From an uncultured Methylophaga sp. (lineage in GTDB: Bacteria > Pseudomonadota > Gammaproteobacteria > Nitrosococcales > Methylophagaceae), in contig CAJXKF010000002.1 of NCBI GenBank assembly GCA_913055695.1, forward strand, positions 124,001-188,000: a stretch of DNA of 64,000 nt, in the 5' to 3' direction. A program made the position numbers and the translations under genes. This document shows, in pieces, positions 54,980 to 56,988 of this stretch (positions within the stretch are counted from its first letter, which is position 1; every line of letters begins with the position of its first letter). The notes beneath the pieces are model-generated. The model worked only from the letters and a program-made list of their open reading frames with translations, had not been told where the DNA came from and searched no databases.

Positions 54980-54999
54980 TTCGAACAGCCGGATGGCAG

Positions 55000-55026
55000 A
55001 AAAAGGGAGCTCAAGCTCCCTTTTTT
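55000..55026. terminator. Bidirectional terminator between dps and the channel gene
   Basis: A5-GGGAGCT / AGCTCCC-T5 stem with a 2-base centre, between converging genes; the channel stop codon lies inside it. Confidence 0.88.
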
Positions 55027-55850
55027 ATTGCCTTTAATTCGGTCTGTTGCACAAGCAGGGCTTTGAGTTCTTCAATCTGACGCGATAAATCAGCCACAGT
55101 CGGTTCACCGGCATGATCTTTCTGCCACTGTTCGGCACTTTCCTTTTCCATCACGTTGACAACAATGCCGATCAGCATATTGAGAAAAGCAAAGGCGTTA
55201 AGAAATATGAAGCTGATATAGAAAAGCCAGCTCAGTGGATGCACTGACATGGTCTCGTACATGACATCCGTCCAGTCCTCAAAGGTCATCACCCTGAACA
55301 ATGTCAGCATCGAGACGGTGATGTCACCCCATAAGGTTTCATTGATTTTGGCAAAGAAGGTCGTGCCCACTGCGGCATAAATATAAACGATAATGAACAT
55401 TAATAAGGCGACATAAGCCAATTGGGGCAGGGCTTTAAGCAGAGAGTTAAGCAGTGTGCGTAGCTCCGGGATCACAGACACCATCCTGAGTACCCGAAAG
55501 ATGCGAATCAGCCGTCCTACCAGGGCGAGTTCACTGTCTTCAATCGGGATCAGGCTGACCACGACGATAATGGTATCGAAGATATTCCAGCCACTTTTAA
55601 AGAACTGCGATTTGCGTTGTTCGGCAAAAAAGCGAATGCTGATTTCGCTAAGGAAAAACAAGGTAATGCTGTAATCGAGCCAGACCATGATATTAACCAC
55701 GGCGGGTGAGATATCGTAGGTTTTGGCCCCGGCGAGCAGCGCGGAGAATAGAATAACGCCAACCACTATTGTTTCGAAAAGACGGTTGCTTCTGATCGCA
55801 TCGAAAACCTTGGTCAGACTGGATGATGCTTTGGACTGAACATCTTGCAT
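55011..55850 (-). CDS. Voltage-gated cation channel, NaChBac-like, acidic filter
   Basis: A 279-residue six-helix channel subunit. The S4 sensor has Arg at 113, 116, 119 and 122 (GRLIRIFRVLRM). The pore filter is TFEDWTD (189-195), where classical bacterial sodium channels have TLESWSM. A C-terminal amphipathic coiled-coil segment (about residues 248-275) is present, as needed for tetramers. The acidic residues at three filter positions resemble engineered calcium-selective CavAb. Ion choice is unproved. Confidence 0.87.
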   Translation of the reverse strand: MQDVQSKASSSLTKVFDAIRSNRLFETIVVGVILFSALLAGAKTYDISPAVVNIMVWLDYSITLFFLSEISIRFFAEQRKSQFFKSGWNIFDTIIVVVSLIPIEDSELALVGRLIRIFRVLRMVSVIPELRTLLNSLLKALPQLAYVALLMFIIVYIYAAVGTTFFAKINETLWGDITVSMLTLFRVMTFEDWTDVMYETMSVHPLSWLFYISFIFLNAFAFLNMLIGIVVNVMEKESAEQWQKDHAGEPTVADLSRQIEELKALLVQQTELKAIKKGA

Positions 55851-55968
55851 TGGCGCTCCGGATCTTTGGTGGATTTGCGCCGAATAATAACGATCGCCCG
55901 ATTAATGCAACAGCCCTGTGCTTGATTCAAGATTATGCTAAGGTCAGGAAAAAAGCGGAGATGCCATA

Positions 55969-56562
55969 ATGAATACGACTTTAAGAGATATCGTGGGGCT
56001 GGGACATCACCCCTCAGCATTGCGTGATTCGGCCCTCATCATGATCGACTGTCAGAACACCTACCGCCAGGGTGTGATGCAACTGGAAGGGGTGGAAGAG
56101 GCCCTTAAACAGGCGCAAACACTGTTGCAGATGGCGCGTGATAATGGCGTGCCGGTGTTTCATATTCAGCATGATGGTGGGGCGGGCTCACCCTATGACC
56201 TTAATACGGCGCTGGGTGAGATAGCAGAGGAAGTCGCGCCGACCGATGGCGAACATGTGATCACCAAGAATTTCCCCAATGCTTTTGTGCAAACGCCGCT
56301 GGATGAATATCTTCGCGGCCAGGGAATAGACAATATTATCCTGGCAGGTTTTATGACGCATATGTGCGTTAATTCAACCGCTCACGGTGGTTTCAACCTG
56401 GGCTACAAGCCGACCGTGATAGCCAGTGCCACCGCCACAAGAAGTCTGGATGCTCCCGACGGCAGCACGTTGCCGGCAAAGCAAGTGCATGAAGCCGCAC
56501 TGGCCTCAACCCGTGACTTGTATGCAGCAGTGATTAACTCAGTTGATGATCTAAAGCTTTGA
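55969..56562 (+). CDS. Cysteine hydrolase (isochorismatase-like)
   Basis: A 197-residue isochorismatase-fold hydrolase. The triad is visible as Asp in ALIMIDCQNTY, Lys in HVITKNFPNAF and Cys in GFMTHMCVNSTA. Members cleave amides, including nicotinamide and N-carbamoyl compounds; substrate not known. Its end overlaps the BLUF gene end by 12 bases. Confidence 0.88.
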   Translation: MNTTLRDIVGLGHHPSALRDSALIMIDCQNTYRQGVMQLEGVEEALKQAQTLLQMARDNGVPVFHIQHDGGAGSPYDLNTALGEIAEEVAPTDGEHVITKNFPNAFVQTPLDEYLRGQGIDNIILAGFMTHMCVNSTAHGGFNLGYKPTVIASATATRSLDAPDGSTLPAKQVHEAALASTRDLYAAVINSVDDLKL

Positions 56563-56988
56563 ATCGTCTTCGGGTAAGCTGAAAGCAAGTTCCCGGCATA
56601 GTTGCAGTGCGCTTGCACCACTCATTTCATAGGGATTAAATTGCTGTCTGCCGGAATAACGCAGAATATGTGACTGGCTCATTTTTGATTCCGGCACATA
56701 AAGCATTTGCCAGTTTTCGAAGCTGCGATGCGTCATCTCAGCGTAATGAAGCAGAATGACATCACGATGGCGGTGATCGTTTTGAATCTTGCGGTAAAGT
56801 TCATTCACCGCCCGGCGGTCACCTTCAAGACACTGCAGGAAATAATCACCATTAAAACAGAGTGCGCCGGTGATAGCTGATTTTGCATTATTGATTCCTG
56901 ACGCGGATAGAATCTGATAAATGTCTTTATCCTTCCAGTCGGAACAACGGGTACTGGCATAGACCAGGCTGACAAGATACATTGCCAT
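56551..56988 (-). CDS. BLUF-domain blue-light sensor protein
   Basis: A 145-residue protein, mostly one BLUF domain. Key residues are Tyr 10 (LVYASTRCS), Asn 33/34 (GINNAKSAITGAL), Gln 52 (YFLQCLEG), and the Trp 93 / Met 95 pair (FENWQM). These bind FAD and switch hydrogen bonds under blue light. No effector domain is attached; a helical tail of about 45 residues may pass the signal to a partner. It begins immediately after the lipocalin stop. Confidence 0.93.
   Translation of the reverse strand: MAMYLVSLVYASTRCSDWKDKDIYQILSASGINNAKSAITGALCFNGDYFLQCLEGDRRAVNELYRKIQNDHRHRDVILLHYAEMTHRSFENWQMLYVPESKMSQSHILRYSGRQQFNPYEMSGASALQLCRELAFSLPEDDSKL

Follow-up and report, generated by a model that had tools for sequence, protein, structure and literature searches.

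The AnclNav group of bacterial voltage-gated channels spans several phyla and carries selectivity filters enriched in acidic residues (Shimomura et al. 2020, PMC7041947). NavPp is a natural voltage-gated channel from the marine, NaCl-requiring bacterium Plesiocystis pacifica. It has the filter TLEDWTD, prefers Na+ with a PCa/PNa of 0.308 +/- 0.028, and is blocked by Ca2+; the authors of that study point out that its filter is identical to the inferred ancestral one (PMC7041947). According to the same study, neither of two substitutions at filter position 6 made NavPp a Ca2+ channel: NavPp-TLEDWSD (T6S) resembled the wild type and NavPp-TLEDWAD (T6A) gave no inward current with divalent cations, whereas TLEDWSD in NavAb and TLEDWAD in NaChBac are both Ca2+ selective (PMC7041947). 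CavMr of Meiothermus ruber (TLEGWVD), a native prokaryotic Ca2+ channel that its authors place in AnclNav and whose filter is more acidic than the canonical ones, has a PCa/PNa above 200 with Gly at position 4 as a key residue, and the D4G change gives NavPp a PCa/PNa of 41; Ca2+ selectivity in NavPp and CavMr is reported to come from this Gly and not from extra Asp (PMC7041947).

For the canonical channel NavAb, the change of the filter from TLESWSM to TLEDWSM alone raises the Ca2+ over Na+ permeability about 100-fold, and a 2023 review gives the rule that Asp at position 4 should make a channel either selective for Ca2+ or conductive to Na+ but blocked by Ca2+ (PMC10120453). Some BacNavs and AnclNavs have Phe at position 2, and L176F in NavAb is said to create no block (2023, PMC10349818). 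NavRh of alphaproteobacterium HIMB114 (PDB 4dxw) is described as nonfunctional in heterologous expression, and its filter, placed in NaChBac, is Na+ selective (PMC4225499). Our literature search found no recording of a channel with the filter TFEDWTD, which is that of the channel described here, and no paper on a voltage-gated sodium channel in Methylophaga; the papers cited here likewise yielded no recording of the variant filters treated below.

The window (the whole stretch of Methylophaga DNA that was analysed, 64,000 nucleotides long) contains a gene whose product the earlier note had read as a bacterial voltage-gated channel with an intact voltage sensor and three acidic residues in the filter TFEDWTD, and all of these readings stood (Table 1). 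The open reading frame begins with ATG, and its product matches the Pfam family Ion_trans with an E value of 7.8e-43; at E <= 0.001, it is the only gene in the host genome to match this family. The four S4 arginines are invariant in all 108 clade rows, and D59, E69, N89, D92, and the S6 residue Asn224 are likewise unvarying in the 108 rows. The protein has no cysteine. A comparison of the window channel gene with that of its nearest relative, L003 (92% identity), gives a dN of 0.046 and a dS of 1.09 (Nei-Gojobori, with dS near saturation), which argues that the gene is maintained under purifying selection. We also considered a chance or spurious open reading frame, which is ruled out by the Ion_trans match, the invariant residues, and the low dN compared to dS.

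Table 1. Features of the channel locus, in positions of the window
Feature	Positions	Strand	Basis
Voltage-gated cation channel gene, 279 aa, six transmembrane helices (AnclNav-type/NavRh-like)	55011..55850	-	ORF, Ion_trans, PDB match, tree, fold model
Shine-Dalgarno-like GGAG, 5 nt before the channel ATG	55856..55859	-	Read from sequence
Selectivity filter TFEDWTD, residues 189-195 (codons)	55266..55286	-	Sequence and alignment of relatives
S4 voltage-sensing helix, residues 107-125, with R113, R116, R119, R122	55476..55532	-	Conservation and model
S6 helix and neck, residues 206-245, with invariant Asn224	55116..55235	-	Conservation and model
C-terminal helix, residues 252-278	55017..55097	-	AlphaFold model
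Terminator-like palindrome that overlaps the last codons of the channel gene and lies between it and the Dps-like gene	54999..55026	+ (as listed)	

An AlphaFold monomer model built with 33 sequences (mean pLDDT, 79.4; pTM, 0.52) has helices that fit S1 to S6, two pore helices flanking the filter, and a C-terminal helix. The last of these is probably the coiled coil of the tetramer, by analogy with the role of this helix in other BacNavs. With an Ion_trans domain, six helices, regularly spaced S4 arginines, and a P-loop of the form T-x-E/D-x-W, the window channel has the features that define the bacterial single-domain voltage-gated Nav/Cav superfamily. It belongs to a large family of such channels, is in no way unusual among them, and is of a known kind.

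A functional gene neighborhood was rejected as a candidate explanation, since none of the neighboring genes accompanies the channel throughout the clade. Within flanks of at most 6 kb, some of them shorter, relatives of the neighboring Dps-like and isochorismatase-like genes were found near the channel in 7 of the 80 named loci, all of them in Methylophaga, and a lipocalin gene was found in 14 of the 80. Four terminator-like sites were found in the region, compared to 1.3 in shuffled sequence, and a search of the locus for a promoter of the sigma-70 type gave 0 hits, compared to 1.9 in shuffles. As a side observation, the lipocalin gene in the window is adjoined by a gene for a BLUF blue-light sensor (56551-56988, - strand; Pfam, 4.1e-30), a relative of which lies near the channel in just 1 of the 80 named loci searched.

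The earlier note had proposed a survey of the filter in relatives, and this survey showed TFEDWTD to be the rule. Within the genus, 22 of 24 genomes have a channel gene, and the remaining two genomes are 68% and 82% complete; the filter is TFEDWTD in 20 of the 22 gene-bearing genomes and TFESWTG in the other 2. Matches were also found in 35 of the 58 genomes searched as relatives (the host's own included), in 116 of 369 genomes of the class sample at E <= 0.001 (37 with at least 50% identity), and in 126 of 398 genomes of the phylum sample at E <= 1e-30 (44 with at least 50% identity). Eleven of these last 44 genomes fall outside the class, and the six proteins read from them (L267 and L271-L275) all have TFEDWTD. 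A collection of contigs held 549 stretches that encode a relative, and in the best 80 of these, which were kept and read, TFEDWTD occurs 78 times, followed by VMYE (75), VQYE (2), or IMYE (1), and TFESWTG occurs twice. Among these best 80 of 549, the nine best named relatives are all from Methylophaga, with M. thiooxydans at the top (79%), and the tenth is from a Marinobacterium metagenome-assembled genome; none of the 80 bears the name of the source species of NavPp or CavMr, of Halomonas elongata, or of Teredinibacter turnerae.

Altogether we read 314 loci, which, once a duplicate locus (L001) had been dropped, gave 294 proteins that differ in their last 200 residues, and we assigned the 204 proteins that scored at least 215 bits to the clade. 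Filters were read from the proteins themselves; reading them from an alignment hides the extra residue of the canonical and ESWATA forms. In this sample, which is uneven in that the families f172 and f195 were searched on purpose as bearers of variants and the clade matches of the phylum search were fetched in part, the 204 clade proteins have TFEDWTD (169), TFESWAT (19), TFESWTS (10), TFESWTG (2), TLEDWTD (2), and TFDDWNN (2). The 90 distinct proteins outside the clade have TLESWSM (48), TLEDWTD (25), TLESWSE (3), TIENWGA (2), and twelve single types that include the TLSSWET of NavRh, so that the exact filter of NavPp lies mostly outside the clade of the window channel. TFEDWTD is thus the norm of a large clade in gammaproteobacteria and other classes of the same phylum, and a rare or novel filter is ruled out by these counts.

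To place the channel among its relatives, we used a quick IQ-TREE tree of 135 rows from which the filter columns had been removed; it is unrooted, carries SH-aLRT support only, and has 49 weak branches among 132 inner ones. On one side of a branch with an SH-aLRT of 99 are 111 rows, made up of the TFEDWTD clade, NavRh (L277), and L073. The opposite side comprises the canonical BacNavs plus a small EDWTD group of four rows, of which three have TLEDWTD and one (L286) has TFEDWTD. L277 is NavRh's own gene (224 of 225 residues identical to PDB 4dxw) and pairs with L073 beside the TFEDWTD clade. The window channel therefore shares a branch with NavRh in this quick tree, but the filters differ, with NavRh having Ser at positions 3 and 4 and lacking Asp at position 7. 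NavRh is also the closest solved structure, being the best of 141 matched PDB sequences (4e-61; about 44% identity) and the best fold match of the monomer model, with a TM-score of only 0.51.

The canonical BacNavs (NaChBac, NavAb, and NavMs, with TLESWxxG filters) resemble the window channel in their six-helix fold, S4 arginines, and C-terminal helix, but they lie across the main branch, lack Asp at positions 4 and 7, and have one more residue behind the filter; the window channel has neither their filter, nor a place among their rows, nor their spacing. Its filter is of the AnclNav form, which is TLESW-like with extra acidic residues and near TLED(S)WTD, and it is close to the one inferred as ancestral. 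The Gly at position 4 that marks the CavMr type is replaced by Asp192, and at position 6 the Val that together with Gly4 gives CavMr its Ca2+ selectivity is replaced by Thr. Since the group with the NavPp filter and VMYT-type tails falls on the canonical side of the SH-aLRT 99 branch, in an unrooted tree built without the NavPp and CavMr sequences, NavPp may be just a distant guide to the window channel.

We also compared the length of the stretch behind the filter, using as our own measure the number of steps that separate the filter Trp from the Trp preceding S6 (Trp-Trp spacing). This spacing is 15 in all rows with TFEDWTD (91/91), TLEDWTD (5/5), ESWTG (2/2), ESWTS (6/6), and DDWNN (2/2) and in NavRh. 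It is 16 in all TLESWSM (10/10) and TFESWAT (6/6) rows, and in 13 of 13 rows when TLESWSM, TLESWSE, and TFESWSM are taken together. Compared to canonical BacNavs, TFEDWTD channels have one residue fewer between the filter Trp and S6, and the engineered Ca2+ channels are built on a scaffold of the canonical type, with NavPp and NavAb themselves outside the measured rows.

These measurements bear on the comparison with CavAb (TLDDWSD, engineered from NavAb) from which the earlier note had derived a possible Ca2+- or mixed-selective channel. When the two filters are aligned gap-free, acidic residues do occupy positions 3, 4, and 7 in both, as had been noted. However, CavAb has Asp at position 3 where the window channel has Glu, so that the nearest engineered filters are instead TLEDWSD in NavAb and TLEDWAD in NaChBac, and the mapping of the third Asp assumes that there is no gap, so that with spacings of 15 and 16 the comparison fails residue by residue at this point. 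The spacing of 15 in the EDWTD rows, including the five with the filter of NavPp, compared to 16 in canonical rows weakens the analogy with CavAb, as do the Na+ preference and Ca2+ block of NavPp, and the Ca2+ reading, though possible, has a lower probability than a Na+ channel of the NavPp kind with Ca2+ block. We consider a Ca2+-selective channel unlikely, in which Ca2+ ions would line up on the twelve carboxylates of the tetramer and keep Na+ out, as they do in CavAb, so that depolarization would lead to Ca2+ entry. The acidic positions are those of the Ca2+-selective NavAb and NaChBac constructs, Asp at position 4 alone has a large effect in NavAb, Ca2+ selectivity is among the outcomes of the review's rule (PMC7041947; PMC10120453), and the acidic filter is strongly conserved in the clade, but the same motifs in the NavPp scaffold are reported to give no Ca2+ selectivity (PMC7041947), position 4 is Asp and not the Gly that matters in CavMr, and canonical rows are one residue longer behind the filter.

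We favor a NavPp-like Na+ preference because the filter of NavPp, which is identical save for Leu in place of Phe at position 2 (as compared by filter motif), gives a low PCa/PNa together with Ca2+ block. By this analogy, the window channel is probably Na+ preferring, weakly Ca2+ permeable, and blocked by Ca2+. The protein would be one subunit of a homotetrameric cation channel that is activated by depolarization and that belongs, within the bacterial Nav/Cav superfamily, to the ancestor-like (AnclNav) type. Its S4 helix with four arginines would sense voltage and, as homology suggests, would move upon depolarization and open a pore that is expected to be formed by the S5-P1-filter-P2-S6 segments of the four subunits. 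At the filter, Glu191, Asp192, and Asp195 of each subunit would supply the 12 carboxylates, and this acidic ring would attract cations and, if it behaves as in NavPp, let Na+ and little Ca2+ pass, while outside Ca2+ at the millimolar level would bind, linger, and block. Seawater Ca2+ is millimolar, and a modest Na+ current would be expected there. The earlier note regarded Na+ use as suited to a saline habitat, which agrees with the host: it is a Methylophaga whose genome encodes the NqrB subunit of the Na+-pumping NADH dehydrogenase (555 bits, with a cutoff of 349.9) and has four matches to MotB-plug genes, whose ion may or may not be Na+. Our guess for the role in the cell is Na+ entry on depolarization, perhaps re-entry, in a marine bacterium that pumps Na+ out.

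Two further readings concern the pore itself. Single changes in the filters of NavPp and CavMr easily allow permeation of K+ and Cs+, with a PK/PNa of 0.99 in NavPp-T6V, but NavPp with its wild-type filter discriminates against K+ (0.16) and Cs+ (0.005) (column order deduced from the text; PMC7041947). NsvBa of Bacillus alcalophilus, which has a different filter, shows that there are natural nonselective members (PMC4225499), and in view of the discrimination by NavPp we regard a poorly selective window channel, passing Na+, K+, and Ca2+ alike, as quite improbable. Two AnclNav homologues whose filters are described as resembling that of NavPp, one from Halomonas elongata and one from Teredinibacter turnerae, gave no current in Sf9 cells (PMC7041947), which counts against the NavPp-like reading by leaving the channel function of such proteins unproven. 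A protein with a working voltage sensor and little or no ordinary conduction, or one that needs a special salt, lipid, or pH condition, would be in line with that result but is very unlikely here, as the conserved filter, the invariant S4 and S6 residues, and the low dN/dS argue for a working pore.

On its own, the window channel adds little to what is published, as the filter type, Na+ preference, and Ca2+ block are already described for NavPp, and it is the variant filters that may bear on what sets Na+/Ca2+ selectivity in the shorter scaffold. All rows with variant filters fall within a clade of 109 rows (support, 97), and from this nesting we infer that the EDWTD state came first, the counts of changes giving no direction. 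The variants ESWTG, ESWTS, and ESWATA lack Asp4 and Asp7 together, with DDWNN being the exception that keeps Asp4. Single branches of the tree set apart ESWTG (two rows; support, 97), DDWNN (two rows; 100), and ESWTS (85), while ESWATA takes two changes to explain on the best tree and at least one by the starred branches. The joint loss of Asp4 and Asp7 goes in the same direction in 2 or 3 of the 3 starred-branch pairs (median p, 0.25, with too few pairs for a test).

The filter TFESWATAVLYP, with a spacing of 16, is nested in the EDWTD clade and was found in L219, L221, L230-L242, L244-L246, L062, and L065 (families f172 and f181); among the 28 proteins of f172, 18 have TFESWAT and 10 have TFEDWTD. 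The six ESWATA rows seemingly also have Gln186 and Pro199 as in canonical rows (6 rows with each residue; L062 and L065 were read), and these forms may have either converged on the canonical Na+ filter or recombined with it. In f195, 10 of 19 proteins have TFESWTS, 7 have TFEDWTD, and 2 have TFDDWNN. TFESWTS occurs in genus g324 (L304-L308, L310-L312, L314, and L315), in a subclade whose other rows are EDWTD or DDWNN. TFDDWNN occurs in genus g330 (L309 and L313) and nowhere else in the sample, and it is similar to engineered aspartate-rich filters. Because the EDWTD rows and the ESWTS and DDWNN rows of f195 sit in different subclades, transfer or paralogy is mixed into its pattern.

The TFESWTG proteins, from the Methylophaga metagenome-assembled genome bin.73 (L016/L147) and from M. 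lonarensis (L017/L150), are near-identical and count as one event. M. lonarensis comes from a saline alkaline (soda) lake (PMC3650440). Lakes of this type are poor in free Ca2+. Tentatively, and with some doubt, we suggest that EDWTD pores that handle Ca2+, by block or permeation, repeatedly became Na+-type ESW pores, and once DDWNN, in adaptation to the free Ca2+ of the habitat. The link between filter and habitat is only an idea, with ESWTG being a single event, and if it were true, these channels would offer a natural allelic series in which to ask how small a number of residues decides between Na+ and Ca2+ selectivity.

Some further relatives have other filters. Two adjacent channel genes on one contig (L284 and L285; G546, contig 135) encode the filters TMEGWPD and TTEGWPT, both of which have Gly at position 4, a site important for the Ca2+ selectivity of CavMr. 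Among the rows with Gly at this position, the three with Pro behind the Trp have a Trp-Trp spacing of 15 and the others have 16 or 17. A further channel, L067, which is 40% identical, has the filter TFDNWAH and a spacing of 19, 4 more than its tree neighbors.
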